DNA of 32,430 bases from Gammaproteobacteria bacterium 13_2_20CM_66_19 (lineage in GTDB: Bacteria; Pseudomonadota; Gammaproteobacteria; Steroidobacterales; Steroidobacteraceae): contig MNCZ01000062.1 in the NCBI GenBank assembly GCA_001914695.1, positions 1 to 32,430 on the forward strand, read 5' to 3'. Of this stretch, positions 324 through 20,199 are shown piece by piece; the first letter of the stretch is position 1, and each line of letters starts with the position of its first letter. The position numbers and the translations under genes were made by a program. The notes below the pieces were generated by a model that was given only the letters and a program-made list of their open reading frames with translations, did no database searches and had not been told where the DNA came from.

Positions 324-432
324 TGGTAGCGGGGGGCCGCTTCGAGACTTTATAGCGCCTATCCCATCCGGGTGTCGGCAGTACGGGCCAGCATCGTTGC
401 GACGAGATGAGACACATTGCAACGGTTTGCAT
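324..432 (+). repeat. tRNA-fMet 3'-end scar, short type (unit A)
   Basis: The unit begins with TGGTAGCGGGGG, the reverse complement of the 3' end of the initiator tRNA found at 20123-20199. It continues with ~95 bp that closely match unit C at 9836-9943 (shared GACTTTATAGCGCCTATCCC-type segment and CATCCGGGTG). It ends in TTGCAACGGTTTGCAT (417-432), an inverted copy of the TGCAAAACGTTGCAA core beside the tRNA. The left core seen at 9821 is missing here, so this is the more decayed copy. Differences from unit C are not concentrated at third codon positions in any frame I tried, so it is probably noncoding. Confidence 0.65.
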
Positions 433-574
433 CGAGGTGCTCCAAGTAGATTGCCTTCGATACAACGGAATGCCGTTCTGTCTGTGAGGCGCCGGATGGC
501 GTGGATCGTCGCCTCCCGGCCAGGACCGGTCACTGAACCTACGAAACCCCGTTACCACGGAATAGACAGGACGT

Positions 575-1254
575 TCATAAAGGCGGCAGCGCAAGGAAAG
601 CGGTCTTGCCCTTGCTCTTCACGTAACGGTCCAGCGAAGGATCGAGGCGCACTGCAGTCTGTAGATCGCTGACAGCTTCGCGCGAGTCGCCAAGCCCTCC
701 GAAGGCTGCGCCGCGGAGGAAATAGGCCCGAGGCAGCCTTGGATCAAGTTGGATCGCCTGGGTCTCGTCTCTTATGGCACTTTCGTAGTCGTGCTGACGC
801 AGGGACACGTAGCCTCGTTCGCTCCACAACGCAGCAGTTTTCGGACGAGTTTAGAGTTGATACCTATGACTGTGTCGAAGTCCCGCAAGGCCGCGTCGTC
901 ATCAGATTGCGCTGCGTAGAATACCCCACGGTTGTAGTAGAGGTCGGCGTTACGGGGAGCCGATTTAACGGCTTCATTGTAATCGCCGAGTGCATGCTGC
1001 TTATCGCCCTGGGCAAAATACGCGGCGGCACGATTCGCAAACAGAAAAAAGCGCTCGTTGCCCTGGAGAATTTTGCGGTCCAACGACTTTGTGCATGCCT
1101 GAATGACCCTGGGCGGCGCCGTGTTCCCGTTGCGATTAATGCACGCCTCGATCACGATATGCTTTTCCCAATTGAGCTGATGCTCACAGATCGCCGACTG
1201 GATATAGAACCCACGGAGGTCTTTAACATCAGCATCTAAGCCAACTTCCCTCAT
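575..1254 (-). pseudogene. Tetratricopeptide-repeat protein, frameshifted
   Basis: Two minus-strand frames join into one TPR protein. The upstream part (1254 down to about 840) contains TPR units such as NADLYYNRGVFYAAQSDDDA followed by ALRDFDTVIGINSKL. The downstream part continues in another frame (about 850 down to 575) with WSERGYVSLRQHDYESAIRD and AYFLRGAAFGGLGDSREAVS, ending in LALPPL. The switch falls near 835-850, around a short A/T run. Each half alone breaks inside a repeat, so a one-base indel (mutation or sequencing error) is the simplest reading. The N-terminal IEACINRNG...VIQACTKSL pattern is typical of small secreted or periplasmic TPR proteins, but I see no clear signal peptide after the ATG at 1254, so the 5' end may also be damaged. 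Confidence 0.6.
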
Positions 1255-1514
1255 GCAGTTGGTGAATTCGTCCGGAGCAGGCGAGCGAAACTCGCGCCCC
1301 TCGCCCGAACCCGCCTAGGATGCCTACGCAGCGGGCCGGTGGCGTAAGCCGTGCTATCGGACTCGCTGCGACCCTTAGCCGATCACCTTACATAATCCGT
1401 GCCCGCGATTACCTATCGCGAAATCTGCGACATAGTTGTCGTCGATAGAGAGATGCGGGCCGTCGTTCCCGAGCGCTAGGTGCGACAGGATATTCGGACC
1501 GTTCCGGCGCATGA

Positions 1515-3638
1515 GTGGGGAATGAAGAAGGCGTGGCTCGCGTAGTCAAAGACCAGGCGTCCGACGACATCTGGCATCTCAGCATCGAGGACTTATTGGC
1601 TCCTTCGAGGGAACCGGCGCGAGCTGCGGGCGCGGGTCCCTTCGTCATCAACCTGAGGACGTCGTCGACCACGATCGGCTCGCCGCCAAAAGGACTGCTG
1701 CCGATCTATCGACTGCATGTATACCAACTCGAGCGAACTCACGACGGGCGGCCGCAGTTTCAGCTCCGCCTGGGTATCATCGAATCCGAGCTGGAAGCCG
1801 ACGCGCTCCTCTCAATGGTGCGCGAGCACTACCCCGCCGCTATCAAGGAAACCGCACAAGACGACGACAAGGCCGCGATCGCGCGTGCAGCGCGCGCTGC
1901 GGGGCCGGCGAAACCGCCGAGCGCAGTCGCGGACGCAAAGGCACCTGTCGCTCAAGAGCGGCGGAAGCCCACCCCGCCCGCTGCGCGACAGACCGCCCCG
2001 CCTGCAGCGCGACAGGGCGCCCGGCCGGCAGCGCGACAGCCCGCCCACGCTGCAGCACGGCGGGCCGCCCCGCCGCCAGCCCGACACGCCGCGGTGGAAT
2101 CAGCAGAGCATTTTCGGTGGGACATCGACGAGCTGTTGCCGGGGCTTGCCGCAGCTTGGCCGCCGCCGTCGGCGCCCGAGCCGACGTTGCCGCTTTATAC
2201 AGCGTCCAAAGGCGAGCGCAAGCCACCCAAGCTGAGCGCCTCGCGCGGCTCCGCAAAAGCGCAGATGCCGCCATCCTCCGCGGCGGCGCCAAGCACGAAA
2301 GTGAGCGCACGGTCTGGCGCGACTCCTCCGTTGCAGAAGGCGCGACCGTCTCAGACTTCTCAACGCGTCACCAATACATCTCTTGCTGAACGGCGGGAAC
2401 TACCATCGGTCGCACCCACTCAAGTTCCGACCGAGCCGCGCGAACGTGTCAATCCAGCAGCGCCGCTCGCGAAGACCGCGCAGCTGTCCGTCGAGGTCTC
2501 GCACGGCGTGTCGCACATTGAGGGGGCGCCGAAGAGCGCAGTTGTCGAGGAAATCGAATCGGACCCGAATGCCGTAACCGATCAAGTGGAGGTGCTCACC
2601 ACAAGGAGCGAGCGGCAAATTGGTGCCGCGACGGCAGCACCGCTGCCACCGGCTAGCACGAGCAGCACGGAGTCTTGGCTCGACCAGAAGCTTCTCGACG
2701 TTTCCAAGCCCGCGCCTGCGCGACCGGAACCGGACTTGCGTAACCTCGATGCTTCTGCTCGAACCGAGCCTAAACGAGTCATTATTGCGGACTTCCCCGC
2801 AGTCGACTCCGTGCGCCCAGAACATCACGCCGTAATTGCTGCTCCCGCTCCGGCGGCTGATACCCCGGGGAAGCTACCCGTCGCAGCCGCAGAGGATGCG
2901 GATTCGGAAGCACTGCAAAGCCGTGTGGCAAAGATCGGCGCGCTCGTGGACTCGGCAGAAACACACCAAAACAGTGCGAACGCGCCTCAGAGCGATGCCA
3001 AGGCATCTGTCGCGGCTGCGCCGCCCGCCGGTTCGCCTCAGCTAATTGCACCTGAGCCGATCGGCCCGAGCCCGCCGCCGGGCACTCCGCAGTCCGCGGA
3101 CGCGCGGGCAGGCGCTCCCTTGATGGACCGTACTCAAACGGTGCGTGCGCTCACACCCCTCGAGCTCGCGGACGGCGAGGCCTCTTGCTGGTTCGCCATT
3201 CAACTCATGCTTCGCGAAGAGCCGATCGATGCCGAGCAGGTGCCGAACCTCCCCATATTTGCAGAATACAGGCTGTACTCGATTACAGGTCTAGAGCAGG
3301 ACCGCGTGATGCACGCGCTGCGCGTCGGCTTCTTCTCGAGCGAGCTCGCAGCGGAAGCGGTGGCAGGTTATCTCGGGAGCTACTTCGACTCCCCGGTCAT
3401 CAAGCGCGTAAGCATCGCAGAGCGTGAGCGTTTTGCAGACACAGGCGTGGCAGCTCGCAAGGATGTCGGTACAGCAGCGATGCACGCCGTGATTGAACTG
3501 GCGACCCCGGCGCCTCCGGCAGAGCGCCGCCTCGCGGCTCCCTCTGACAGGCGCGCGGCTCCCTCTGACAGGCGCAAGAGTGCTGCGAGCCAAGCAACGT
3601 CGCTCTGGTCTCGCCTGGTTGCGTCGCGCCATCGGTGA
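1515..3638 (+). CDS. 707-aa protein with SPOR-like domains at both ends and a low-complexity middle
   Basis: A stop at 1512-1514 fixes the 5' limit; GTG 1515 is the first start, GTG 1533 the alternative, neither with a good ribosome site. Residues ~43-110 (FVINLRTSS, then YRLHVYQLER and FQLRLGIIESELEADALLS) and ~557-640 (WFAIQLML, YRLYSITGLEQDRVMHALRV, GFFSSELAAEAVAGYLGSYF) follow the beta-alpha-beta pattern of SPOR-type domains, ending in the usual 'length/gain corrected by residue window' signature (RLGiieSELEADAL / RVGFFSSELAAEAV). Between them lie ~440 residues rich in Ala, Pro, Ser and Arg, including PAARQ-type repeats (about 150-192) and a repeated RRAAPSD near 680. No transmembrane segment or signal peptide is seen. 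SPOR domains bind denuded peptidoglycan in the family; whether these do is unproven. The function of the whole protein is unknown. Confidence 0.7.
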   Translation: MGNEEGVARVVKDQASDDIWHLSIEDLLAPSREPARAAGAGPFVINLRTSSTTIGSPPKGLLPIYRLHVYQLERTHDGRPQFQLRLGIIESELEADALLSMVREHYPAAIKETAQDDDKAAIARAARAAGPAKPPSAVADAKAPVAQERRKPTPPAARQTAPPAARQGARPAARQPAHAAARRAAPPPARHAAVESAEHFRWDIDELLPGLAAAWPPPSAPEPTLPLYTASKGERKPPKLSASRGSAKAQMPPSSAAAPSTKVSARSGATPPLQKARPSQTSQRVTNTSLAERRELPSVAPTQVPTEPRERVNPAAPLAKTAQLSVEVSHGVSHIEGAPKSAVVEEIESDPNAVTDQVEVLTTRSERQIGAATAAPLPPASTSSTESWLDQKLLDVSKPAPARPEPDLRNLDASARTEPKRVIIADFPAVDSVRPEHHAVIAAPAPAADTPGKLPVAAAEDADSEALQSRVAKIGALVDSAETHQNSANAPQSDAKASVAAAPPAGSPQLIAPEPIGPSPPPGTPQSADARAGAPLMDRTQTVRALTPLELADGEASCWFAIQLMLREEPIDAEQVPNLPIFAEYRLYSITGLEQDRVMHALRVGFFSSELAAEAVAGYLGSYFDSPVIKRVSIAERERFADTGVAARKDVGTAAMHAVIELATPAPPAERRLAAPSDRRAAPSDRRKSAASQATSLWSRLVASRHR

Positions 3639-3867
3639 GATTGCGAATTAGCCGACGCTGCCAGAAATAGGGGGGCGAGCGTGCTAACGGCCGGCGACGC
3701 GGCGCAGGGCGGTAGCGCAATCACCCATCCGACTGCAAGAAGTGCGAATCCGGCTCGGCGACCGGAGCCTAGAGCGCTTCATCAAAGTCCGGATGTACGG
3801 CTTCAATCTGTTCCTCCGCCCCTCCGCCTGCGCTTACTGAGGAGCGCCTTGCAAGGCGGGAGCGACC

Positions 3868-4134
3868 ATGTACGTCACCTATCTCATCGGAATCGACAAC
3901 TTCAAACGTGGTAGCGGGGGCGCGATTCCGACTTATAGCACCACCGTCATTCCATTCACGAGCGCGGACCGCCGCCGCAAGAATTCCTCCGTCCAGATTC
4001 CCAACCACTGTTGTAACGGACACGCTCTCACACCCGATAACGTCCGAATAGACCATCGTGAACGCCGCTGGCGCTGCCGACGGTGTGGTAACGACCGCGC
4101 TGCGGCATTTGGGGATGGGCAACGGACAGGCTGA
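3868..4134 (+). CDS. Small zinc-ribbon protein (copy 1)
   Basis: ATG 3868 follows GCGGGAG with good spacing; 88 aa. The core is CNGHALTPDNVRIDHRERRW followed by RCRRCGNDRAAAF, a Cys-x-x-Gly-His ... Cys-x-x-Cys pattern resembling the zinc ribbon linked to phage HNH endonucleases, but without an HNH core. A second copy lies at 11782-11997. Between the copies many differences are synonymous third-position changes (GGA/GGG, ACA/ACC, CCC/CCT, GAT/GAC, AAC/AAT, CGT/CGC, TTT/TTC), which supports this strand and frame and argues for selection on the protein. The reading frame crosses the tRNA-derived scar at 3909, so the GSGG peptide is encoded by former tRNA sequence. DNA binding is an inference. 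Confidence 0.5.
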   Translation: MYVTYLIGIDNFKRGSGGAIPTYSTTVIPFTSADRRRKNSSVQIPNHCCNGHALTPDNVRIDHRERRWRCRRCGNDRAAAFGDGQRTG

Positions 4135-4279
4135 GTGCGCTCGCATAGTCAGGAGCACGCTCCCATCGGATCGGTATGTCGCCCTTCGCAACGGATGAAA
4201 TCGCCTGGACCCGATTGTCGCACGCGAAGACTGCCCGAGGCGCCCGTACGGTGGCGCAACGCCTTGCAACGGTCTGCAC
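3909..4279 (+). repeat. tRNA-fMet 3'-end scar, long type (unit B)
   Basis: The unit begins with TGGTAGCGGGGGC (3909-3921), the tRNA 3' end, and stays recognisably homologous to unit D (11769-12141) through the zinc-ribbon frame (to about 4115) and again at its right end. There TTGCAACGGTCTGCAC (4264-4279) is an inverted copy of the tRNA-flank core. Homology continues some 20 bp beyond (AAACGCATCACGCAGCGTAGT here, AAAATGCATCACGTAGTA in unit D). The middle part, 4115-4240, is not obviously similar between the two. Confidence 0.55.
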
Positions 4280-4753
4280 CCAAACGCATCACGCAGCGTA
4301 GTTTCTGCTCGATGGGATAAACTTAGCTTCTCGTCTGCGTTTGCGTTGCGAGAAGCAAAGCTCGGCGCAAAGAACAAGCGGATTTGCTCGCCGACGAAAC
4401 CGTGAGAGCAGGGGCTGCCGTGCTCGAGACCGACAAAGTACCAGTGCCTGTCCGGTTTCACCTCGACACGAAAGGGCGCGTCGTTAGCTTCGCTATGAGA
4501 CATTGATAACACCGCTCGCGCACAGCTCGGACCGACTGATGCCGACACCCGAGATGCACCGAATGCACGCGACGGGTGAGCTGCGTTTTCCTTTGTTCGC
4601 GCCATTGTGTGGAACCTGACGACGGACGCCAGCCGGCTGGACCTCGCACCCAGCAGCCCGTTCCGCGTCTCCGCGACGCTCGAGCGGACGATCTCATCCA
4701 CATGGGCCACCGCCTCTAAGAGGCGCGAGAAACGTCATCAGTCGGAAGAGAAC
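4280..4753. other. Stretch with no convincing gene
   Basis: A long minus-strand frame stays open across this stretch and on into the zinc-ribbon unit, but there it reads the wrong strand. Its part starting at ATG 4503 (MSHSEANDAPFRVEVKPDRH, then WYFVGLEHGSPCSHGF) is the most protein-like piece and could be a small unrecognised gene or remnant. It has no ribosome binding site and no family match I can name. I do not call it. Confidence 0.3.
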
Positions 4754-5239
4754 TCAATCGACCCGAACTGTCGCTGACGCCGTAACCGTATTGACGCCAC
4801 TGAGAGGCGTTGCGCCTGCGTTCAAAACAACAATGTCGGTCACGGTGCTAGGCACGCCATCCTGCCCGGCATGTATGGTCACGTGAAAGACGCACTGTCC
4901 GGATGTCGTGGAAATACCGGTATTGGTCGAAGCGTTCATCACTGGAACCAGAGACACCCCCGCTTGCCCCACCAGGACTTTCACATTAGAGGGTGCAGAA
5001 GCGCCAGGAGAGCAATTCGCCGTATCGTCGGTAATGGCGATATGCGCGCTGGAGATTGTGTGTGGAGTCGTGTCAATAAACGGGAAGACAGCGCCCGGAG
5101 CCAGGCCGGAAAGCATGGAGCTTGCCACTACAAACTGACTGCCATCGCCGTTTGCGGACGCTTCCCTGGCAGGCAATACCACAGCGAGCGAAACGACCAG
5201 ACCAACTGCGAGAACCACATAGTACTTTCGAGTCTTCAT
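4754..5239 (-). CDS. Small exported protein of unknown function
   Basis: The start at 5239 is preceded by AGGAGGT at ideal spacing, and the ORF extends upstream only as low-quality sequence, so MKTRKYY is the start. Residues ~1-32 form a classic Sec signal peptide (MKTRKYYVVLAVGLVVSLAV core, AREASA cleavage region). The mature ~130 residues are rich in Ser, Thr, Val and small residues. There are two cysteines (in TANCSPG and SGQCVFHV), which may form a disulfide. The pattern suggests a beta-rich secreted or periplasmic protein. No family is recognised. It is divergent from the HTH/TPR gene at 5402, with about 160 bp between the starts, so they may share a regulatory region. Confidence 0.7.
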   Translation of the reverse strand: MKTRKYYVVLAVGLVVSLAVVLPAREASANGDGSQFVVASSMLSGLAPGAVFPFIDTTPHTISSAHIAITDDTANCSPGASAPSNVKVLVGQAGVSLVPVMNASTNTGISTTSGQCVFHVTIHAGQDGVPSTVTDIVVLNAGATPLSGVNTVTASATVRVD

Positions 5240-5401
5240 GGGGACCTCCTCTGAACTGATTCTCGAGGGGCCTGATCCCCTCGGCCAGCATCCGCGGAGA
5301 AAGCTACGATGAGCCGGGAAGGGCCTGCAACAGGCAGTTGCGGGCTGTCCGCTGATGCCCGCTCGTGACCGCGTCGGGACGAGCGTAATTGCCGGGGGAC
5401 G

Positions 5402-7207
5402 GTGCACTGCGGTAAAGTTTCGTGCAAATTCAAGCAATTTTTCGGTAGGTCTCTCAGATCGCTCGTGGACGGTCCCGAACCACACAGCCGGGAAGAGCGC
5501 TCCGGGTCCCGCACGTCGGATCGTCTGGACTCCTGGAAAGAGATCGCGGCGTACTTCAAACGGGATCAGCGCACTGTGCGCCGCTGGGAAGAGAGCGAGG
5601 GCCTGCCGGTCCACCGGCATCAGCACAAATCTCGCGCGGCGATCTTCGCCTACAAATCTGAACTCGACGCGTGGTGGGACAACGGCCGCCAGAGGTTGGA
5701 AGGGGACGCGCAAACTACGGCTGCGAGAGGAACGAGACGGCTCATCTGGCCGGCTGCGGCAGCGGGGATTTTGCTAGTCGTTGGCGGGATGTTCGCACGC
5801 CACTGGCTGCGGGACAGGAGCATCCGGGCTCACGTCCAGTCGATTGCGGTCCTGCCGCTTGCGAATCTCTCTCAGGATCCAGGGCAGGACTACCTTGCGG
5901 ATGGGCTAACCGAAGCTCTGACGACCAATCTCGGAAAACTCAGCGCCCTGCGCGTTATTTCCCGGACTTCGACTGCGCAATACAAGGGCACAAAGAAATC
6001 CATTCCCGAAATTGCACGCGAGCTGCACGTGGATGCGCTGGTAGAGGGTGCGGTCATGCGCTCCGGAGACAGGGTCCGGATTACGGCACAGTTGATTGAG
6101 GCACCGGCGGACCGGCATGTGTGGGCCGAAACCTATGATCGCGACGTCCGGGACGTGCTGGCATTGCAAGCTGATGTGGCGCGCGCGATTGCCGTGCAGA
6201 TCCGTGGGAATCTATCCTCTATCCCGGCACCGCATGAAGCGATACCGCTAAATCACGAGGTGTATGAGCTATATCTAAAGGGCCGCTACGCGCGGGATGA
6301 GGGCAGCGAGGATGGCCTGAAATTGGCCTTTGAATACTTCCGGCAGGCCCTGGAGAAGGATCCGCAATACGCACCGGCCTACGCGGGACTCGCCGACTGC
6401 TACGCCCATCTTCCCTTCTACTCGGAAACCCGTCCGGCAGAGGCCTTTCCCAAAGCAAAAGCTGCCGCGCTGAAAGCGCTGCAGCTCGATCAAACCCTGG
6501 CCGAGGCACATGCTTCCATGGCTTACGTGGAAACCTATTACGATTGGAACTGGCCGGGCGCCGAGGCAGAGTTCAGAAGGGCGCTTGAACTCGATCCAAA
6601 TTATGCGGAAGCGCATCACTCCTACAGCAGATTCCTGGTTTCGCTAGGCCGCGTTGAGGAGGCCCGCGCCGAACTCAAGCGCGCCCAGGAGCTCGACCCG
6701 CTTTCCCTGTTGGTTCAGGCCAATAGCGGAGTCATCTCCTATTTTGGGCGGCAATACGACCAAGCCATTCAGGAACTGCGACAGATCAATCGCCTGGACC
6801 CGAAATTCTCTGTACCTTACTGGGGCCTTGGCCTCTGTTATGAACAGATGGGCGTGTATGAAGAAGCAGTCACCCAGTTGCAGAAAGCCATCCACCTCTC
6901 GGGGAGAGGGGCGAATGGTATTGCTTCTCTCGGCCACGCATATGGTCTGGCTGGTCGGCGCGGTGAGGCGCTGAAAATACTCCTCGAATTAGAGGAACGC
7001 GCCAAGAAGAGCTACGTATCCTCTTACCAGATTGCATTGGTTTATCTCGGTCTGCACCGGAACGATGAGGCATTGAAACAATTGGAGAACGCTTACCAAG
7101 AGCGCTCCACTCTTCTCACCTACCTTAAAATGGACCCCAGATTCGACCCGCTCCGCTCGGATCCACGCTTTGAGGACCTGCTCCGCCGCATTGGGCTTAA
7201 GCACTAA
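5402..7207 (+). CDS. HTH / TolB-like / TPR transmembrane regulator-type protein
   Basis: 601 aa from GTG 5402; a start nearer residue 40 is possible because the conserved part begins at LDSWKEIAAYFKRDQRTVRR. Domains in order: an excisionase/MerR-like winged HTH (about 41-95, with WE then LPVHRHQ); one transmembrane helix (about 114-134); a FlgO/TolB-N-like domain (about 147-265, from IAVLPLANLSQDPGQDYLAD to VRITAQLIEAPADRHVWAE); then TPR units (about 285-595, e.g. FEYFRQALEKDPQYAPAYAG). This architecture is common in Acidobacteriota and is usually annotated as a TPR or adenylate-cyclase-like protein. Its role there is not established; transmembrane transcription control is inferred. GC is lower than in the right part of the window, and the acidobacterial style suggests transfer. 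Confidence 0.8.
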   Translation: MHCGKVSCKFKQFFGRSLRSLVDGPEPHSREERSGSRTSDRLDSWKEIAAYFKRDQRTVRRWEESEGLPVHRHQHKSRAAIFAYKSELDAWWDNGRQRLEGDAQTTAARGTRRLIWPAAAAGILLVVGGMFARHWLRDRSIRAHVQSIAVLPLANLSQDPGQDYLADGLTEALTTNLGKLSALRVISRTSTAQYKGTKKSIPEIARELHVDALVEGAVMRSGDRVRITAQLIEAPADRHVWAETYDRDVRDVLALQADVARAIAVQIRGNLSSIPAPHEAIPLNHEVYELYLKGRYARDEGSEDGLKLAFEYFRQALEKDPQYAPAYAGLADCYAHLPFYSETRPAEAFPKAKAAALKALQLDQTLAEAHASMAYVETYYDWNWPGAEAEFRRALELDPNYAEAHHSYSRFLVSLGRVEEARAELKRAQELDPLSLLVQANSGVISYFGRQYDQAIQELRQINRLDPKFSVPYWGLGLCYEQMGVYEEAVTQLQKAIHLSGRGANGIASLGHAYGLAGRRGEALKILLELEERAKKSYVSSYQIALVYLGLHRNDEALKQLENAYQERSTLLTYLKMDPRFDPLRSDPRFEDLLRRIGLKH

Positions 7208-7312
7208 TCAGCGCCGCGATCACAGCGTCATCGGCCAGCGCGGCTTGCGGGGCCAGGCAGGATGATCGATTGAATCTAAGCAGCAGGTTGAAATGACGAA
7301 GGAGAAGGCGAG

Positions 7313-11668: not shown

Positions 11669-11768
11669 CAAGCCTTGCAATGGGCGCGATCGGGAACGGC
11701 GCGAGACACGGCGGAACGCCCCGCGTTGCGTGGCTAAGTTACTGAAACTTAAGTATTAATTGTCGGAA

Positions 11769-12421: not shown

Positions 12422-12445
12422 TAGAGTCAGCGCAGGAGGACGGCC

Positions 12446-12613: not shown

Positions 12614-12709
12614 GCGATTGAAGGCCGGAAGCCCTGGGTTGCCGATGCTCTCGGGGCTTTCGATCGCGACGCATCATCTGGCGCGCAGTTCGACCAGCGC
12701 GAGCCGCCA

Positions 12710-13387: not shown

Positions 13388-13410
13388 TCGAACACGCGTG
13401 CCCGTTTCGT

Positions 13411-13441
13411 GAAACACGCTGTGTTCACGCGCGCGTGTTTC
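13411..13441. terminator. Hairpin downstream of the oxygenase gene
   Basis: Nine-base arms GAAACACGC and GCGTGTTTC pair perfectly across a 13-base loop, 24 bp after the oxygenase stop. There is no T-tract, so termination is only possible, not shown. Confidence 0.3.
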
Positions 13442-13448
13442 GGTCAAG

Positions 13449-13532
13449 GTCCAGGTGCCGCGCCACCTGCGGGTCAAGCATGCCTGCGCGGGGCTGCTTG
13501 CGCATTTGGTCACGAGCAAGTACGAAGACTAA
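13449..13532 (+). pseudogene. Possible IS66-family transposase (TnpC) scrap
   Basis: The forward frame reads VQVPRHLRVKHAC then AGLLAHLVTSKYED and stops at TAA. IS66 TnpC proteins carry a V-x-RH-x-R-x-K-x-AC segment, a zinc-binding stretch, then LLA-x-x-x-x-x-KY-x-D(HLPLYRQ). Here the two ends appear joined, with the Cys region deleted and the protein cut off at the D. No terminal repeats or neighbours of an IS66 are seen. The match is short, so this is tentative. Confidence 0.35.
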
Positions 13533-13982
13533 TAGTATTCGCCCGTGCCGCCTCGGGAGGCGCTGCAACGGCAATCATCAGCCGCGAGGACTGCCGCGAA
13601 CATCGCGGATCATCAGTCACGCGACCCGTTCGGCTGCATACACCTCACTCCGGACAACCTCCAGAATTCGGAAGTCTCAGCCAACGCGTGTCGCGCCGCT
13701 AGTGCGGGCGGTTGTGCTGGTCCTGCGAGGTGGGTTTCGGCTCGCCACTTGTGCGACGGCGGATATTCAGAGTCGTAGTCCTCACGTAATCCGTCGTTGT
13801 CACTATCGAGTTCCACGCATCGTGCGTGAGGTGGCTGATCCGTTCCCTTAGGTGCTGAAAGCCTTGCATCATTTTCATTTCGGTCTCCTAGGCATGCAAT
13901 GGGTCCAGGGAGGCCCTAGGGTCGACGGGCCGCCCGCGCCCGCGAGCATGCAACGATGGGCGCCAAGCGGAGGGCAACCAGA
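13533..13982. other. Degraded stretch with no intact gene
   Basis: No frame on either strand is convincing. A minus-strand piece near 13755-13790 (EYPPSHKW) faintly recalls the NYLPSHEW segment of NAD-formate dehydrogenase and could be further debris of the remnant at 13983-14121, but the match is too short to count. Confidence 0.3.
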
Positions 13983-14121
13983 TTCGGCGGGCGTGAAATC
14001 GATCGACCTTGGGCATCGGAGTGGTTTGACCGCCCGGGTAGCGGTCAATGTCGGGAATGCCGTCGCGCGCATACGTCCTGGGATAGCCCGTAACGGGATC
14101 TACACAGACGATCTTGGCCAT
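13983..14121 (-). pseudogene. NAD-dependent formate dehydrogenase, N-terminal stump
   Basis: ATG 14121 on the minus strand reads MAKIVCVDPVTGYPRTYARD then GIPDIDRYPGGQTTPMPK. After a frame change near 14005 it continues IDFTPAE. The N-terminus of bacterial NAD-formate dehydrogenases (about 400 aa; Pseudomonas sp. 101 type) has the same order: MAKxxCV, DPV-x-GYP-x-x-YARD, YPGGQT-x-P-x-PK, IDFTPG. After this, similarity is lost within ~45 codons, and the catalytic and NAD-binding domains are missing. The intact enzyme oxidises formate to CO2 with NAD+. It lies at the downstream end of a minus-strand redox cluster, 195 bp past the reductase gene. Confidence 0.75.
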
Positions 14122-14316
14122 GGCAGTTCTGCACTGGCACACGGTTGCCGGGAGAGACCCCATCGCCGCCAAGCATTCGGGGCGGCACCCCTCGGATTCT
14201 ACGCCTCGTCCCCGTCTGCGACATGAAGGAGAGTAAATAGACGCTGAGTGTGTGCGGCGCAGCGAGGTCCGTCGGTGTTTGGAGTGCACCGCTAATTGCT
14301 ATCAAGAGTCCGGCAC

Positions 14317-15039
14317 TCAGTAGCCGTAAAACTCTTCGGAGCGCATCGCCTGCCCGTCTATCCCGATCTCTTCGAGCATCTGCTGCATTGCCATGGTCAT
14401 CGCCGGTGGCCCCGCGAAATAGTAGATCGGACTCCTGAGATCCGGGAGATGACGCTCCAGCATGTCCCGCCGGACGAGACCTGTTTCGCCCGCCCAGGCG
14501 CGCGTCGATTTCTGCGGTGCCGTCATGGTCGCGATCAGCCGGTAGCTCGGGTTGACTTCTTCCAACCGCTGCAGCTCGGGGAGAAATGCCCCATCCTGCG
14601 GCCGGCGGTTCGAATAAAAAAGATAAAGCCGATGTGGCAACCTTCGATGTGCTGCGTCCACCACCATGGCCCGAAACGGTGTAATGGCGATTCCGCCCGC
14701 GATCAACGCGGCGGCCCGCGAGGCGTCGTCGTGCAGCACCAGTTGTCCGTTAGGACCGTCCATCCTGAGCAGCGTACTGAGCGGCGCCGTCCTGAGCACA
14801 CGCTTAAAAGAGGTGTCACGCACGCGCGTGGCGATCATCAGATCCGGCTCGCCGGGGGCGCTCGCGATTGTGAAGGTACGCGAATCTCCCTCAGCGTCGG
14901 TCTCCGGTGGGTTGACGAGAGTCACCAGCATCGACTGTCCTGCTTGATGCGTGAAACCGGCAGGCTTGGTGAAATGGAAGGCCATCGTGCCTTCTGCCAC
15001 CGTCTCCCGATCACTCAAAGAGACCTCATGGAGTGGCAT
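14317..15039 (-). CDS. FAD/NAD(P)-binding oxidoreductase of the ferredoxin reductase (FNR) family
   Basis: 240 aa, full length for a stand-alone FNR module. An N-terminal FAD barrel contains RTFTIASAP (54-62), the FAD-binding R-x-Y/F-S/T-x-x-S motif. The NAD(P) domain has AGGIAITPFRAMVVDAAHRR (about 114-133), YLFYSNRRPQD and YYFAGPPAMTMAMQQML. It ends EEFYGY, the usual aromatic C-terminus that stacks on the flavin. No 2Fe-2S domain is fused. Such proteins pass electrons between NAD(P)H and a partner. The CDGSH iron-sulfur protein encoded 30 bp upstream, the cupredoxin or the cytochrome are possible partners, by context only. Confidence 0.85.
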   Translation of the reverse strand: MPLHEVSLSDRETVAEGTMAFHFTKPAGFTHQAGQSMLVTLVNPPETDAEGDSRTFTIASAPGEPDLMIATRVRDTSFKRVLRTAPLSTLLRMDGPNGQLVLHDDASRAAALIAGGIAITPFRAMVVDAAHRRLPHRLYLFYSNRRPQDGAFLPELQRLEEVNPSYRLIATMTAPQKSTRAWAGETGLVRRDMLERHLPDLRSPIYYFAGPPAMTMAMQQMLEEIGIDGQAMRSEEFYGY

Positions 15040-15069
15040 CGCGAGAGCTCTTGCCGGGTTCCCGCACCT

Positions 15070-15291
15070 TCAGAACGTCCGGATGCTCGGAAAAGTCTCT
15101 GCGCAGTCATGGCGAGCGCCCGCATCGTCATACCAGTAGAGCCTGTTGGCCTCCTCGTTCTGGGTGAGTTTGTGCGAGCTGTCGCAGAACGGCTGATTCT
15201 TGGACAGTCCGCACCGGCAGAGGTATTTTTCCTCGCCGCCGATCGCGAGTTTGTAGGGTCCTTGATGCGTGCGTTTTACCTGGCGTGCCAT
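15070..15291 (-). CDS. CDGSH-type iron-sulfur protein
   Basis: The start MARQVKR at 15291 follows CAGGAGACCGCG; the frame is open further upstream but lacks a ribosome site. 73 aa. The metal-binding motif is C-R-C-G-L-S-K-N-Q-P-F-C-D-S-S-H, matching C-x-C-x2-S-x3-P-x-C-D-x-S-H. Ser replaces the Gly of the canonical CDGSH, and three Cys plus one His remain to hold a 2Fe-2S cluster. The gene overlaps the 3' part of the DUF488 reading frame in another frame, and precedes the FNR reductase by 30 bp. A small electron carrier is the likely role. Confidence 0.85.
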   Translation of the reverse strand: MARQVKRTHQGPYKLAIGGEEKYLCRCGLSKNQPFCDSSHKLTQNEEANRLYWYDDAGARHDCAETFPSIRTF

Positions 15292-15850
15292 CGCGGTCTC
15301 CTGTATCAGGGCGGGGTCGCCTCCCGCGTACCGGTAGCTCGTTGCCAATTCGAACCGGGCGCGCGGACTTATTAGTAACGCCGAATGTTGCCGCGCTTCT
15401 TTTCGAAGGCGGCCGTGCGCGCGCCGTGAAGCGTCGATTCTGTCCCCGCAGGAGACTAGCGCGCAGCACGACTGCTGCATTATGACGCGTGTCGTGTGCG
15501 CTGTAGAGGAGAGTCACGGCGCCGCGCTGGCTTGCTTCGATGATAGGCTGCCAGGCACTCGGGTTGGCTCTCAACTCGCGCTCGTAGCGCCTGCGAAAGC
15601 CCTCCCATCGCTCTATCCTATGCGCGAACCACATCCGCAGCGCGGTGCTGGGCGCGACGTCCTTCATCCACGCGTCTGCCGCGAGCGCTTCCTTCATGCC
15701 CCGCGGCCAGAGGCATTCCACCAGGATGCGCTGCCCATCGCTGCGGTGCGGAGGCTCGTAAACGCGCTTGATCCCAATCACGACATCCTCAGATGGGAGC
15801 GGGGCCGCCCAAGTCGCGGGTAAGGTGTCAACGCCGTGCTCCTCATACAT
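15128..15850 (-). CDS. DUF488 (YeaO-like) protein with run-on C-terminus
   Basis: The YeaO core is clear: IGIKRVYEPPHRSDGQRILV, LWPRGMKEALAADAWMKDVA, PSTALRMWFAHRIERWEGF and VTLLYSAHDTRHNAAVVL. It ends near residue 133 (about 15450). Family members are usually ~115-125 aa and stop there. Here the frame runs 107 more residues, basic and random-looking, through the CDGSH gene in a different frame, so the native stop has probably been lost by a mutation or indel near 15440-15450. A TAG is present in another frame at that point. The start overlaps the end of the AhpD-like gene by 8 bp. The function of DUF488 is not established. Confidence 0.7.
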   Translation of the reverse strand: MYEEHGVDTLPATWAAPLPSEDVVIGIKRVYEPPHRSDGQRILVECLWPRGMKEALAADAWMKDVAPSTALRMWFAHRIERWEGFRRRYERELRANPSAWQPIIEASQRGAVTLLYSAHDTRHNAAVVLRASLLRGQNRRFTARARPPSKRSAATFGVTNKSARPVRIGNELPVRGRRPRPDTGDRDGTPGKTHASRTLQTRDRRRGKIPLPVRTVQESAVLRQLAQTHPERGGQQALLV

Positions 15851-16172
15851 CCGCGATCGCTTGGAGAGCGATCAGCGAGTGAGCGTAGGCAGCGCCTGCG
15901 CGCATCTCGGCGGCGACCCAGATCGCTTCCGTCAGTTCTTCCGGCGTGGCGCCGTGGCGCAGCGCGGCTTTGGTGTGGCCACGGATGCAGTACGGACATT
16001 GGGTGACGTGCGCCACCGCCACAGCGATGAGCTGCTTGGTCTTGTCAGGCGGAGCGCCTTCTGCGAAGACGCGCTCACTGAAGGCGGTGAAAGCGTCCTG
16101 AACGTCGGGGGCGAGCTTCTTGCGCCTCGCTGCGAGGTCGGGTGTTGGCTGCGGTAGGACATCTGTCGCCAT
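15843..16172 (-). CDS. Carboxymuconolactone decarboxylase / AhpD-like protein
   Basis: 109 aa with AGAGGAGACG before ATG 16172. The AhpD-type redox motif is present: HVTQCPYCIRGHTKAALRHG, with the C-x-x-C pair and the following His. EELTEAIWVAAEMRAGAAYA gives the conserved acidic/His-adjacent helix. Single-domain members act as small alkylhydroperoxidase-like reductases or are uncharacterised. It is probably cotranscribed with the downstream DUF488 gene (8-bp overlap). Confidence 0.85.
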   Translation of the reverse strand: MATDVLPQPTPDLAARRKKLAPDVQDAFTAFSERVFAEGAPPDKTKQLIAVAVAHVTQCPYCIRGHTKAALRHGATPEELTEAIWVAAEMRAGAAYAHSLIALQAIADV

Positions 16173-16232
16173 GGTGTGCGTCTCCTCTGTTGGTGCGGGT
16201 CCGGCCGCAAAGCGGAGAGCTGAGAGTCAAGA

Positions 16233-16652
16233 TCACTTGAGAGTTCCTGCGCGGTTTGCGCGAGTGATCGGCGCCTTGGCCCGGGATTCCACGACGAGCC
16301 TGGCCCTCATGGTAGGGTGAAACGTACACCCGTAATCGAACTCGCCCACCCTGCGGGCCCTGTAGGTCCAGGACACGTTAGGTGCGATGCTGCCCGAATC
16401 GAAAGCCTTGCTATCCGCCGTGGCGGTATGAGGAAACAGATCTCTGTTGATCCAGACGAGACGATCCCCTCGGTGCACCGTTAGCGTCTGCGGATTGAAA
16501 CGCATCCCCTCGATGGTAACGGTATAGGTTTTCGCGGCAGGGATCTGGGTCGCGCTTCGGGTACCCGCAGCGACGGTCAGCGTGCCTGCGCACACCACAA
16601 CGCAGGCGCGGGCAATGCCCCGGGTTTGCGACACGCATGCAAGCAGCTTCAT
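16233..16652 (-). CDS. Exported cupredoxin (plastocyanin/amicyanin-like)
   Basis: 139 aa. An N-terminal signal-like segment spans ~11-33 (ACVVVCAGTLTVAAG). The single cupredoxin domain starts near YTVTIEGMRFNPQTLTVHRG. Type 1 copper ligands are visible: His75 (LFPHTATADS), Cys109, His112 and Met115 in YGCTFHPTMRARL. This supports a periplasmic electron carrier. It starts 3 bp after the DUF4142 stop, so the two form an operon. Confidence 0.85.
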   Translation of the reverse strand: MKLLACVSQTRGIARACVVVCAGTLTVAAGTRSATQIPAAKTYTVTIEGMRFNPQTLTVHRGDRLVWINRDLFPHTATADSKAFDSGSIAPNVSWTYRARRVGEFDYGCTFHPTMRARLVVESRAKAPITRANRAGTLK

Positions 16653-16655
16653 CCA

Positions 16656-17183
16656 CTACATCTTGCCCAAGGAGCTTTGGATCTGCTTCGCGCTCTCCAG
16701 ATGAGCGACGAACGCAGGACGCACCTTGACGAGCAACGCTTTGAGCTCTGCATTCTGCGCGCTCGGAATCAAGGTCTTGTCCAGCGCGTCGATAACGCTC
16801 TGATGATAGGCGACCTCATGTTCGATGTACGCCTTGTCGAACGCACCGTCGCGGAGCTTCTTCAGAGCAGCGAGATTCTCGTCCCCGCCCCGTTTGAGGC
16901 TCTCGCTCGTCGGGTTGCTCTCGGGGGTCACGTGCAACTTCTGCACGAGCTCCGTGGCCGACTGGTTCACGCCGGAATGATCCGTAATCATCCGCTGTGC
17001 GAAGTCCTTGACTTCCTTGGAGTGCCCTTTCGACTTGGCGAGTTTGCCGGCGGCGATATCCACCTGATTCGCGGTCACGACAATCGCTGCAATCTGCGGA
17101 TCCATCACATGAGTAGTCTGGGCCCCGGCAGCTGCGGTGAGCAGGGCGAGGGTTGCAGCGCAAGGCGCATAGCGCGGTTTCAT
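16656..17183 (-). CDS. Exported DUF4142 protein
   Basis: The start MKPRYAPCAATLALLTAAAG (17183) is a signal peptide and follows TGAGGAGGACGAA, so the longer upstream open frame is not used. 175 aa. The mature part is the helical DUF4142 domain (ferritin-like fold predicted for the family): MDPQIAAIVVTANQVDIAAG, KSKGHSKEVKDFAQRMITDH, then YIEHEVAYHQSVIDALDKTL. The family is periplasmic and often induced with stress genes; metal binding is suspected but not proven. It is the first gene of the minus-strand cluster and diverges from the cytochrome gene. Confidence 0.85.
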   Translation of the reverse strand: MKPRYAPCAATLALLTAAAGAQTTHVMDPQIAAIVVTANQVDIAAGKLAKSKGHSKEVKDFAQRMITDHSGVNQSATELVQKLHVTPESNPTSESLKRGGDENLAALKKLRDGAFDKAYIEHEVAYHQSVIDALDKTLIPSAQNAELKALLVKVRPAFVAHLESAKQIQSSLGKM

Positions 17184-17467
17184 TTCGTCCTCCTCACGGG
17201 AGCAACAGCCCGTTCGTGACTGACAGGTTCTTTTAGCACCTGTCGTGACATTGGACAACGCGAGTTTGTGGGCGCCATCCCCGCCGTGAACAACTGTTAG
17301 GCACCAGCTGCGGCCGGTTCTGTAGGTGAAGCGATCTCCCATGGCGGCCGCTCTGCGGCCGAGTGTGCGCTGCCGCTTCGACACAGCGATTCCTTCGCGT
17401 CGTTGCAGCGTCGCCGACGGTCATTAGAAGACGACCTCTGACCAGCTTATGCCACCGTAGGGCTAGT

Positions 17468-17481
17468 GTTACCGACGTAAC
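17468..17481. promoter_or_regulatory. Dyad GTTAC-N4-GTAAC, predicted Crp/Fnr-type site 1
   Basis: Perfect five-base arms with the four-base spacer CGAC. The centre is 27 bp from that of site 2. It lies in the intergenic region between DUF4142 (minus) and the cytochrome (plus), so it could serve either direction. Confidence 0.6.
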
Positions 17482-17494
17482 AGCTTCTGGGAAC

Positions 17495-17508
17495 GTTACC
17501 AAAGTAAC
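17495..17508. promoter_or_regulatory. Dyad GTTAC-N4-GTAAC, predicted Crp/Fnr-type site 2
   Basis: The spacer is CCAAA-type (GTTACCAAAGTAAC), identical over all 14 bases to the site before the Crp/Fnr gene at 18959. It ends about 95 bp upstream of the cytochrome start codon. The flank TGATCTGTCACC resembles TGACGTTGCCACC after site 3, so the wider promoter may be duplicated. Confidence 0.65.
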
Positions 17509-17602
17509 TGATCTGTCACCTTCGAAGTGGTAGCAAGAACAGGCGAGCGTGCGAAGCCGAACACTGATCGCGACTCGATCACAGGGATGGGAGGAATTCG
17601 CC

Positions 17603-18910
17603 ATGAGACTGTTCAGGGGAACGCGCTTCCTGCTCGGCGGCCTTTTGCTCTGTCTTACCCTAAGAGCGCAGGAGCTTTCAGGGTTCGATGCCGTGATTCG
17701 TGACAATGCCAGACAAATGGCCGATGAGGGCAAGCGAACCTTTCGATTCGACACATTCGGCGACGAGACCTTCTGGGGTGACACGCTGCGACTGCACGAA
17801 GCAATCGAAGGGCAGAAGTTGGGCGGCGTGGGGGCCGGGGTGAGCCCGGCGACGGCGCTCGCGGTAGGCCTGAAAGTCGACGTGGACGCGTTGCCCGCCA
17901 GCGTCATAGCCGCTCTTAGGGCAGGCAAGGTCGACCTTAACGATACTGCGACAACGCTGCTGCTGCTGAAAGTGGGTTCTGTGGTTGGAGTGACCGGGCA
18001 TTTCAACAGCCAGGGTCGGCTGAGTTCGATTGGAATACAATGTGCCCTTTGTCATTCCACCGTGGACGACTCATTCGCTCCTGGCATCGGTCATCGGCTG
18101 GATGGTTGGGCGAATCGTGACTTAAACGTTGGCGCGATCACATCGCTCGCGCCGAACCTGCAACCTGCTGCAGCCCTCCTCGGCACGGACGTAGCGACGG
18201 TCAGGAAGGTACTCGCTGCCTGGGGACCGGGAAGGTTTGACGCCGAACTCTTCATGGATGGCAAGGGCTTCCGGCCCGACGGCAAGAGCTCTGCCGTTCT
18301 CATTCCGCCGGCTTTTGGACTGGCCGGTGTCAATCTGCACACGTGGACCGGCTGGGGTTCGGTCACATACTGGAATGCGTTCGTGGGAAATCTGGAGATG
18401 CACGGCAAGGGAACGTTCTTCGATCCGCGCCTGAACAGTGCCGCTCAGTTTCCCGTGGCGGCGGCTGCCGGTTTTGGTAACCTGCGAAACACCCCCGACC
18501 TGATCACAGAGAAGCTCGGCGCGCTGCAATTTTACCAGCTCGCCATACCGGTTCCGAAGCCCCCGAAGGGAAGCTTCGACGAAGCGGCAGCCGAGCGGGG
18601 CAAAGAGCTCTTCGCGGGTCAGGCTAAGTGTGCGACATGCCACGTTCCGCCGCTATTTACCGAGCCGGGCTGGAATCTGCATGCGCCCGAAGAGATCGGA
18701 GTCGACGACTTCCAGGCCAGTCGTGCCCCGGACAGGCGTTACCGTACGACTCCGCTGAAAGGACTGTGGACGCACACCAAAGGTGGCTTCTTCCACGACG
18801 GGCGCTTCTCAACGTTGGGCGAAGTGGTACAACACTACAACGGTTTCTTCGGTCTCGGCCTCAGTGATCAGCAGGTTCACGATCTGGTCGAATATCTGAA
18901 GTCGCTGTAA
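17603..18910 (+). CDS. Exported di-heme c-type cytochrome (cytochrome c peroxidase-like)
   Basis: The start MRLFRGTRFLLGGLLLCLTL (17603) follows GGGAGGAATTCGCC; the upstream extension of the frame has no signal. 435 aa with a signal peptide to about residue 22. Two heme-binding motifs are seen: CALCH (147-151) and CATCH (343-347). The C-terminal part (RRYRTTPLKGLWTHTKGGFF, HDGRFSTLGEVVQHYNGFFG, then DLVEYLKSL) is as in the MauG/CcpA superfamily. Long insertions separate the hemes, so substrate could differ from peroxide. It is divergent from the redox cluster and 227 bp before the Crp/Fnr gene; two dyads lie upstream. Confidence 0.85.
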   Translation: MRLFRGTRFLLGGLLLCLTLRAQELSGFDAVIRDNARQMADEGKRTFRFDTFGDETFWGDTLRLHEAIEGQKLGGVGAGVSPATALAVGLKVDVDALPASVIAALRAGKVDLNDTATTLLLLKVGSVVGVTGHFNSQGRLSSIGIQCALCHSTVDDSFAPGIGHRLDGWANRDLNVGAITSLAPNLQPAAALLGTDVATVRKVLAAWGPGRFDAELFMDGKGFRPDGKSSAVLIPPAFGLAGVNLHTWTGWGSVTYWNAFVGNLEMHGKGTFFDPRLNSAAQFPVAAAAGFGNLRNTPDLITEKLGALQFYQLAIPVPKPPKGSFDEAAAERGKELFAGQAKCATCHVPPLFTEPGWNLHAPEEIGVDDFQASRAPDRRYRTTPLKGLWTHTKGGFFHDGRFSTLGEVVQHYNGFFGLGLSDQQVHDLVEYLKSL

Positions 18911-18958
18911 CTGGCAGGATACGCGACCCAGCCTGCTGATCGGTTCGGCACGGCATGT

Positions 18959-18972
18959 GTTACCAAAGTAAC
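18959..18972. promoter_or_regulatory. Dyad GTTAC-N4-GTAAC, predicted Crp/Fnr-type site 3
   Basis: GTTACCAAAGTAAC, identical to site 2, between the cytochrome stop and the Crp/Fnr gene. If the centre is at -41.5 as in class II Fnr-type promoters, transcription would start near 19007, just after the AT-rich GATAGGCGTAT (18993-19003). This suggests autoregulation. Confidence 0.65.
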
Positions 18973-19137
18973 TGACGTTGCCACCTGTAGGTGATAGGCG
19001 TATCAGTGCTCGGGACGCTGGTACGCAAATCCACTCAGGGAGCGGGGTCTTCGCCATGACAGAAGCTCCAGCGTGGCGGTTCCTAGTCGCGTTCCCAACC
19101 TCTCGTGAAAAGCGCGTGGCTTCGGCAGAATCATTCG

Positions 19138-19875
19138 ATGCCAGCATCGATCGCACCCACCGGCCAGAGTGCAGAGCGGCAGGCCCTCGGATTTGAGGAT
19201 TCCCTCTCTCAGGCAGCGCTTTCTACCGCTCTGGTTTCAGTCTTTCGCGGAAAGTTTTGCGACGCTATCCTGCCGAATCGAAAAGCAGTCGCTTTCAAGA
19301 AGGAACAGGTCATCTACGACGTGGGGGATACGGCACGAACGTTCTTCTTTCTGCAGCGTGGATTTGTAAAGGTCGGCACGATTACGTCCGATGGCCACGA
19401 ACTCATCTACGATGTACGCAAAGCCGGAGATGTCGTCGGCGAACTGTGCGCGTCCGAGCTGCAGCGTCTGGATCGAGCCGTGGCGCTTGAGCCAGCAGAG
19501 GCCATCCCCGTGCCATTCGAGGAGGTAATGGAAGCCGTGCGAGAACGACCTGACCTACTGACACGACTCGTTGACGTCTTCTGCCGTGCGCTGAGTGAGG
19601 CCTATGCACAAGTGAACACCTTGGCGGTGGACGACACGGCTCATCGGCTCGCCAAGGTGCTGCTGAAACTGGCGGCCAAGATAGGTCAGCACTCGGGGTC
19701 CGAGGTCGAGATTCCCACGTATCTCACGCAAGAAGAAATCGCGCAGATGGTGGCTGTACGCCGGGAGAGAATTTCAACAGCGCTGAATTTTTTTCGCCGC
19801 AAGCGCCTGATTCAATATACCAATCATGGGCACCTGGTGCTGAATGTGAGCGCCCTGGAAAGCTACGTTAGTTGA
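19138..19875 (+). CDS. Crp/Fnr-family transcription regulator
   Basis: ATG 19138 (245 aa) is preferred; an in-frame GTG at 19105 is possible, and neither has a strong ribosome site. An N-terminal cyclic-nucleotide-binding-type barrel spans about 35-140 (VIYDVGDTARTFFFLQRGFV, KVGTITSDGHELIYDVRKAG, DVVGELC), followed by a dimerisation helix and a winged HTH (YLTQEEIAQMVAVRRERIST, ALNFFRRKRLIQYTNHGHLV). The four-cysteine N-terminal pattern of oxygen-sensing Fnr is absent, so another ligand or redox signal is likely. The GTTAC dyad before its own gene and before the cytochrome is the natural candidate operator. Confidence 0.85.
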   Translation: MPASIAPTGQSAERQALGFEDSLSQAALSTALVSVFRGKFCDAILPNRKAVAFKKEQVIYDVGDTARTFFFLQRGFVKVGTITSDGHELIYDVRKAGDVVGELCASELQRLDRAVALEPAEAIPVPFEEVMEAVRERPDLLTRLVDVFCRALSEAYAQVNTLAVDDTAHRLAKVLLKLAAKIGQHSGSEVEIPTYLTQEEIAQMVAVRRERISTALNFFRRKRLIQYTNHGHLVLNVSALESYVS

Positions 19876-20107
19876 CGGCTAAGCCCGCCAAGGGCGACAC
19901 GTCCTCGCCGCGGCCACCCGTTTCCTCTGTGGATTGTGTTCAGCGCTGCGCTGGCGCTGCTGCTCTCATCGACCTGGAAAGCCGGTCAACACGTTCCAGG
20001 GGCGCCGGCAGCCCCACCACAGAAACAGCACGATCCGATATCTGAAGCCCGAAACGTTGCTGACCGTCCGGCGCGAGGCTCGTCGGTGCATTTGGGTGCA
20101 AATGGGT
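19876..20107. other. Island right edge without a convincing gene
   Basis: No clear gene. A forward open frame (GTG 19936) runs into the tRNA antisense and ends in AGAGFEPATFGL, the well-known artefact peptide produced when the complement of a tRNA 3' end is translated. TGCAAA-type motifs are repeated at 20094-20120 (GGGTGCAAA twice, then GCAAAACGTTGCAAA) and may be recombinase-binding sequences. Confidence 0.4.
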
Positions 20108-20136
20108 GCAAAACGTTGCAAATGGTAGCGGGGGCA
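20108..20136. repeat. att-like core at the tRNA-fMet 3' end
   Basis: This sequence covers the last bases of the tRNA gene (from 20123) and 15 bp beyond it, and matches 9821-9849 in 28 of 29 positions. It marks the right-hand attachment site of whatever occupied, or still occupies, 9.8-20.1 kb. Confidence 0.75.
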
Positions 20137-20199
20137 GGATTTGAACCTGCGACCTTCGGGTTATGAGCCCGACGAGCTGCCAGACTGCTCCACCCCGCA
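20123..20199 (-). tRNA. Initiator tRNA-fMet (CAU anticodon), CCA encoded
   Basis: 77 nt on the minus strand. The anticodon arm TCGGG-CTCATAA-CCCGA carries the three G-C pairs unique to initiator tRNAs. The T arm GCAGG-TTCAAAT-CCTGC pairs perfectly, and the acceptor stem GCGGGG/CCCCGC is followed by the encoded CCA. Position 1 is U and position 72 is U, so the first pair is open as required for formylation, though E. coli uses C1-A72. Its 3' end is the insertion target of the neighbouring elements. Confidence 0.95.

Follow-up and report, generated by a model that had tools for sequence, protein, structure and literature searches.

Cassettes inserted at a conserved tRNA, carrying repeats of the tRNA end and varying in size between strains, are described for the flexible genomic islands fGI1 of Alteromonas (PMC4119200), fGI-2 of Methylophilaceae (PMC10872708) and fGI1 of Actinomarinales (PMC7771536). 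In Methylophilaceae fGI-2, the repeats correspond to the last 20 nt of tRNA-Lys and the islands range from 330 bp to 42 kb (PMC10872708). The ssrA islands of Dehalococcoides can be found in tandem downstream of one RNA gene with 20-bp copies of its 3' end as bounds, and 15 of the 31 islands have no integration module and are suggested to have moved with adjacent islands (PMC3146451). Tycheposons are cargo elements of 4-200 kb which are bordered by a tRNA (tRNA-Met(CAT) in Methylophilaceae) and linked to a tyrosine recombinase (PMC10872708). The locus described here lies on a 32,430-bp sequence, hereafter the window, which is one complete contig (MNCZ01000062.1) of Gammaproteobacteria bacterium 13_2_20CM_66_19, a 136-contig draft assembly (G000) that is 82.6% complete. 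The left 20.1 kb of the window very probably constitutes a mobile gene-cassette array at the 3' end of an initiator tRNA gene (tRNA-fMet), with five complete cassettes and part of a sixth.

In the published sense (PMC4119200; PMC10872708; PMC7771536; PMC5217437), the array is an additive flexible genomic island: a conserved tRNA target is combined with repeats of its 3' end, as in the islands described there, and the same chromosomal place holds a variable number of cassettes among relatives. It differs from these islands in that the target is tRNA-fMet and the repeat a core of 12-13 bases with a conserved half-site and, as far as the cited passages go, in its families of paired ends and its near-identical cassettes in reversed order. 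With the Dehalococcoides islands it has in common the tandem units downstream of one RNA gene; there the target is the tmRNA gene and the enzyme a serine recombinase (DsiB), whereas here a P4-like tyrosine integrase is found beside the tRNA in three relatives only. Tycheposons are described as carrying a recombinase gene, whereas here many units of about 1 kb have none; in the window neither a tyrosine recombinase gene inside an element nor, as in a P4-type integrative island, an integrase beside the target tRNA was found. Neither this tRNA-fMet array nor paired-end cassette families were found described in the literature searched, subscription journals lying mostly outside it.

The repeat TGGTAGCGGGGG is present at 324, 3909, 9836 and 11769 and, within the tRNA-fMet gene, at 20123, every copy being on the + strand, as the earlier note on this DNA had reported. 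From shuffles of the window, 0.15 matches with at most one mismatch are expected, and five were reached in 0 of 100 shuffles. A core profile was built from those sites in 58 stretches (806 kb, window included) that deviate from the 12-mer at no more than one position; the stretches had been picked for holding the motif, the tRNA or a cassette match. The exact copies of the window are among the training sites of the profile and the copy at 10172 is not. Scanned with this profile, the window has six places only, namely the five above at 28.8-34.4 bits and, at 10172, the degenerate TGATAGTGGGGG, which scores 23.4 bits, so that the original list of five was correct and one short. No other place scores above 4.0 bits, and nothing on the reverse strand exceeds 0.7 bits. 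The left end of the 10172 cassette can be found too at cores of G000:C61 and G045.C29. The tRNA-Met(CAT) gene at 20123-20199 reads as the initiator, with three G-C pairs in its anticodon stem and no Watson-Crick 1-72 pair. In the window, GC content is 60.9% left of this tRNA and 67.9% right of it.

The repeat had been regarded as a fragment of the tRNA. It does comprise the tRNA 3' end, but it is more than that, namely a recombination core running on into cassette-specific ends. The non-tRNA copies have in common a sequence right of the 12-mer which is unlike the tRNA, and among 100 non-tRNA sites (including the N-masked tRNA of G041.C253, which entered as such a site both here and in the analysis of end families) the bases conserved beyond the 12-mer are C at position 12 (77%), G at position 15 (89%) and T at position 17 (81%). 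The right half of the core (G-M-T-W-Y-S) is similar both to the tRNA and, when read inverted, to the left half TGGTAGC. Tyrosine recombinases use two half-sites around an overlap of 7-8 bases, and the two halves of the core would be compatible with such an arrangement.

Beyond the core, ends were grouped by clustering the 90 bases right and the 60 bases left of each core, which yields families of left (L) and right (R) cassette ends. These ends are paired far more often than by chance. In 28 cassettes both ends could be assigned to a family, although some of these are one cassette in two genomes and hence not all independent; their pairing statistic is 30, whereas 20,000 permutations gave a mean of 6.8 and never exceeded 24. 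Of 7 complete L2 cassettes, 6 end in R1, L3 pairs with R0 in 4 of 4, and the integrase-bearing L4 with R7 in 3 of 3. The L2/R1 members, 1.8-8.4 kb in length, align mainly over their first 200-400 and last 40-150 bases, with the exception of one cassette present in two genomes; many cassettes thus carry the paired ends of a family around cargo that differs. The match at 9821, already noted from the window alone, is real, with one mismatch in about 30 bases; it extends to 28/29 because an R1 right end stands before 9836 and another before 20123. The proposal that the shorter and more diverged copies are the older ones has to be given up, and with it any age ladder from repeat divergence, since the similarity between 9821 and 20108 is that of a right-end family common to two cassettes.

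Homologous recombination of the RecA type between dispersed short repeats, without a site-specific recombinase, is quite improbable as a source of these units. Core copies do agree in all of 12-13 bases, and similarity between some cassette ends extends over 100-400 bases, yet boundaries fall at the core even where 400 neighbouring bases show no similarity. Efficient homologous recombination needs more than 12-13 bases, so that the core is too short to support it, and the choice of a tRNA 3' end as target and the single orientation would be left unexplained.

Comparison with relatives, 58 genomes of the genus, indicates that cassettes travel. On G045.C128, positions 6058-9560 match window 324-3852 at 97.3% identity and positions 125-6165 match window 3877-9943 at 97.9%, cassette 3909-9835 being matched end to end. 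Their order is reversed: 324-3852 lies left of 3909-9836 in the window and right of its counterpart in G045.C128. At the right end of the 324-3852 unit, the next core stands at the end of the match in G045 and 57 bases further on in the window. The chromosome right of the tRNA, compared between the window's genome and G045.C29 over 7.5 kb, is 79.3-79.7% identical. Units at 97-98% identity in opposite order, beside a flank at about 79%, indicate that cassettes move and reshuffle as units. It also follows from the opposite order of these outer units that the array is shuffled and not only layered; the serial accretion at the tRNA 3' end that had been proposed is supported, further cores lying only downstream at the tRNA-fMet loci treated below. 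Window 1-317 is 96% identical to G045.C133 and is followed by an L2 cassette there and an L0 cassette in the window; window 1-277 is matched at 95% on G045.C29, the contig with the tRNA and flank.

Similar cases are found among other members of the genus. G058 14288-15852 and G003 9465-11028 (82%), G003 11028-17816 and G012 4742-12734 (81%), and G052 15662-16459 and G020 4994-5791 (92%) are delimited exactly by cores on both sides, and in each pair one neighbour or both differ; such core-bounded common cassettes with different neighbours again imply movement as units. G003 and G058 have a Fic cassette in common and differ in the cassette nearest to the tRNA (L4/R7 in G003, L0/R6 in G058), as is expected if new units enter at the tRNA. 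That the arrays are an assembly or binning artefact, i.e., chimeric contigs fused at a short repeat, is extremely improbable: the assemblies are of draft quality and some of the cores are close to the end of a contig, but core-delimited arrays can be found in many separate assemblies, and the unit G058 14288-15852 is found again in G003, where cores bound it on both sides, and in G014 and G012, where a core bounds it on the left.

Across the genus, the exact 12-mer is present in 42 of the 58 genomes, the tRNA's own copy being counted. Exact copies exceed those of a reversed control in the array-rich genomes (G045, 19 vs. 2; G040, 13 vs. 1; G041, 10 vs. 0), and a single orientation is observed in all 30 contigs with at least two exact copies, among the matches listed. 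In the 58 stretches, forward and reverse profile sites number 130 and 0 at 12 bits or more, 131 and 1 at 10 bits, and 132 and 10 at 8 bits, the forward sites being largely the training set and the reverse strand serving as control; 20 further stretches contain 19 forward and 0 reverse profile sites. L050 (G000.C100, a lone copy), L052 (G005.C64) and L148 (the second part of G052.C56) were fetched as well and are not among the 58. The 78 stretches together contain 37 tRNA-fMet loci, of which 16 have 1 to 7 more cores, all downstream, and no core was found on the other side of the tRNA in any of the 37 within the stretch read. Neither of the outcomes that the earlier note had named as refuting it was observed, since the number of copies differs between relatives and cores within arrays go together with tRNA-fMet. 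Core-to-core distances extend from 56 bp to 18 kb, with 26 of 68 at 1.33 kb or less.

In named genomes, a search with the core pattern gave 12 stretches, all from metagenome bins, 11 of them titled Proteobacteria, Pseudomonadota or Gammaproteobacteria and one Acidobacteria. Three core or left-end patterns had no match in viral contigs, and window 3909-9847 had none in plasmid or phage records.

Several observations weigh against a mobile array. No integrase is found in the window, in agreement with what had been seen at the outset: 0 of the 8 PF00589 places of G000 lie on the window's contig. Of the 8 G000 integrase places, 6 loci were scanned and none has a core within about 1.5 kb, and of four G000 integrase loci scanned for tRNAs three adjoin other tRNAs, namely Arg, Val and, in a core-less locus, tRNA-Met. 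One copy in reverse orientation, with one mismatch in the 12-mer, is present in G041.C268. As many as 21 of the 37 tRNA-fMet loci have no further core; 7 of these (G001, G002, G005, G010, G052, G053, G071) were read over 14-20 kb downstream and the other 14 over 10 kb or less. With further cores at 16 loci and 7 loci without a detectable array over at least 14 kb, the array is common in the genus and not universal. No family could be assigned to 31 of the 105 left ends or to 63 of the 130 right ends, and L0, the largest left family (34 members), is a chain linking unlike types, e.g., A and C. The relatives are drafts, mostly highly fragmented, and no gain or loss of a single cassette between two strains was seen among those compared. 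Neither an excised circle nor a clean empty site was seen, the comparison of empty sites that the earlier note had called for having been made in part. Finally, G045.C128 could be a mis-binned contig from a strain near the window's genome, since it stops short of the tRNA and flank; this would weaken a transfer between species, not the reversed order.

The searches for a mover covered tyrosine recombinases (PF00589, TIGR02249). With 64 integrase queries against the 58 stretches, a P4-like integrase was found beside tRNA-fMet in G003, G012 and G007 only, in elements of 5-8 kb and with 86-95% mutual identity; its best match in the other 55 genomes is 51% identical over part of the protein. A weak integrase-like piece of 172 residues was obtained in G001 (18.6 bits), and the 20 further stretches gave no match to the integrase queries. 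Of 68 core-to-core intervals, 3 hold an integrase, a fourth (G001) having the weak piece. The integrase of G044.C99 was considered as an array integrase and set aside, as it adjoins tRNA-Ala. Candidate movers of the window's cassettes are a P4-like integrase acting in trans, another recombinase absent from the incomplete assembly, or something else.

These findings bear on the possibility that the locus is an immobile graveyard of ordinary integrative islands that lost their own tRNA-fMet integrase by deletion, which is unlikely, though it deserves more weight than the other alternatives. In its favour, P4-like elements stand right beside tRNA-fMet in three relatives, truncated genes are present (the penicillin amidase piece at 9025-9423), and the 336-bp cassette resembles a deletion of a longer one. 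Against this stand the scarcity of integrases in the core-to-core intervals, the ends of the integrase-bearing elements (L4/R7), which belong to another family than those of the window, and the 97-98% identical cassettes in another order, which point to recent movement.

Chromosomal integrons likewise display an array of small cassettes in one orientation, often with toxin-antitoxin pairs, at a fixed insertion platform. Here the platform is a tRNA gene, and no intI over the cut-off is found in G000. That the cassettes are nonetheless moved by IntI, the tRNA end being a stray attachment site, is very improbable. Cassette sizes and toxin-antitoxin-like cargo are similar, and intI (TIGR02249 over the cut-off) is present in 14 of the 58 genomes, including the array-rich G045, G040, G044 and G041, but it was not found over the cut-off in the array-bearing G003, G012, G049, G050, G052 and G058 either, and the 14 intI-type loci scanned (e.g., L191-L193) contain no core. 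The ends of a cassette show no inverted, attC-like pairing (own ends 13.2, others 13.1; attC covariance models were not run). On these three tests, i.e., intI with the array, cores at intI loci and pairing of ends, identity with an integron was ruled out.

Under the preferred reading of a mobile cassette array, a circular cassette with one core would be joined to the core of the tRNA by a site-specific, probably tyrosine, recombinase. Crossing-over inside TGGTAGCGGGGGC would restore the tRNA 3' end and leave a core copy on the far side; repeated insertion would build up an array in one orientation, and recombination between cores would allow cassettes to be excised and to move. The circular intermediate, the tyrosine-recombinase chemistry and the supply of the recombinase in trans are what we infer from the arrangement of cores and ends. 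A bolder version, which we consider rather doubtful, would be an independently arisen integron-like system, with the initiator tRNA as platform, a quasi-palindromic core derived from the tRNA and a recombinase acting in trans that would take up, excise and reshuffle cassettes which several species share. tRNA-targeted cassettes can here be traced as units between genomes, near-identical and in swapped order on a diverged chromosome. The case points to a tRNA core as a possible basis for an integron-like lifestyle of small cassettes, most of them without an integrase and some with toxin-antitoxin-like cargo. Now that the core, the families of ends and a candidate integrase have been named, the question of what moves integrase-less islands becomes testable.

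Table 1. Cores, cassettes, cassette ends and selected genes in the left part of the window.
Feature	Position	Strand	Remarks
tRNA-fMet (CAT), intact	20123-20199	-	ARAGORN; Rfam RF00005; insertion point is the 3' end, 20123-20134 on +
Core copy 1, exact	324-335	+	profile 28.8 bits; left end of cassette 324-3908
Core copy 2, exact	3909-3920	+	profile 33.4 bits; left end of cassette 3909-9835
Core copy 3, exact	9836-9847	+	profile 33.3 bits; left end of cassette 9836-10171
Core copy 4, degenerate TGATAGTGGGGG	10172-10183	+	profile 23.4 bits; left end of cassette 10172-11768
Core copy 5, exact	11769-11780	+	profile 31.9 bits; left end of cassette 11769-20122
Partial cassette, right-hand part	1-323	+	clipped by contig end
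Cassette	324-3908	+	TPR protein (772-1254, -) and 707-aa open reading frame (ORF) without family (1515-3638, +)
Cassette, end family L2/R1	3909-9835	+	TPR protein, beta-lactamase-family hydrolase, truncated penicillin amidase
Cassette, 336 bp	9836-10171	+	both ends match the 1030-bp G045.C29 cassette; without that cassette's middle part
Cassette	10172-11768	+	DUF6036 nucleotidyltransferase / helix-turn-helix (HTH) gene pair
DUF6036 nucleotidyltransferase	10397-10957	-	Pfam E 2.3e-10
HTH protein	10947-11663	-	Pfam HTH_31 E 7.4e-11
Cassette, end family L2/R1, adjoining tRNA	11769-20122	+	cargo in text
Right end, family R1 (TGCA-rich)	9794-9835	+	common to 20084-20122
Right end, family R1, beside tRNA	20084-20122	+	common to 9794-9835
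74-codon open frame, core into L2 left end	3910-4131	+	zinc-ribbon-like
Same frame, second L2 cassette of the window	11770-11994	+	zinc-ribbon-like

Regarding cargo, the cassette adjoining the tRNA encodes a 2OG-Fe(II) oxygenase, an NAD-binding oxidoreductase, CDGSH, DUF488 and CMD proteins, a cupredoxin, a DUF4142 protein, a cytochrome c and a Crp-like regulator. The penicillin amidase piece corresponds to a truncated gene, its 133 residues aligning to positions 186-299 of a 675-position profile. The DUF6036 nucleotidyltransferase and the HTH gene probably form a toxin-antitoxin-like pair. A 216-bp piece of the nucleotidyltransferase gene (window 10396-10611) is repeated at 97% in G000:C33:6178-6393, about 1 kb from a type A core. 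Among 20 chosen proteins of other arrays (18 from relatives and 2 from G000 C33 and C61), 14 have a Pfam match: four Fic/Doc proteins, a MazE-like antitoxin beside one of them, DUF6036, HTH, kinase, M20 peptidase, CAAX protease, OmdA, bestrophin, DUF1573 and aldehyde dehydrogenase. Toxin-antitoxin-like units recur among the cargo of the arrays. A stop codon supplied by the core (TGG TAG) can be found in the Fic cassettes of G052 and G020 and was rejected as a general rule.

A frame of about 74 codons running across the core is open in all 7 copies of the L2 end and displays a CxNGHxL...RWRCRxCG pattern, zinc-ribbon-like by eye. Over 60 codons, the ratio of nonsynonymous to synonymous polymorphism (pN/pS) is 0.45 in this frame, vs. 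1.14 and 1.74 in the other forward frames; one reverse frame is open in all seven with a ratio of 1.07, and one, with stops, has 0.66. A family search with the zinc-ribbon frame gave nothing convincing (best E 0.038). Of 6 L2/R1 cassettes, 4 acquire an ATG or GTG six codons ahead of the core when their own ends are joined, and two of these four are one cassette in two genomes; the start codon is missing in the remaining two L2/R1 cassettes and in the L2/R4 cassette. Because end-joining provides a start codon, it may be speculated that the frame could be switched on in an excised circle and have a role there.

Some intervals between cores carry no cargo. Such core-to-core intervals of 56-58 bp can be found at L053:6518-6576, L133 (G040.C1, oriented 3940-3996) and L132:1042-1100, those of L053 and L133 having both end families in common, and window 3852-3908 may by eye be a short interval with a decayed core.

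On the side away from the tRNA, a 1.6-kb stretch left of the array of G058 has matches of more than 300 bits in 26 of the 58 genomes, G058 included, and none in G000. It lies on the same side of the tRNA in G058 and G002, at distances of 5.4 and 19.7 kb, respectively, is followed by a core at 3.1 kb (G066), 4.4 kb (G055) or 8.7 kb (G052), and is inverted relative to the cores in G014. For G058 and G048, another stretch on the left side of the array was tried as chromosome flank and discarded; given an ORF that looks by eye like a PIN-domain (VapC-type) toxin, it is probably another cassette.

Two tRNA-fMet loci per genome are present in G003 (C26, C65), G007 (C117, C213) and G020 (C223, C671), and further cores accompany both of them in G003. 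The record titled Acidobacteria (L225) displays the same core pattern, which could be a matter of naming or binning or could reflect a wider spread.

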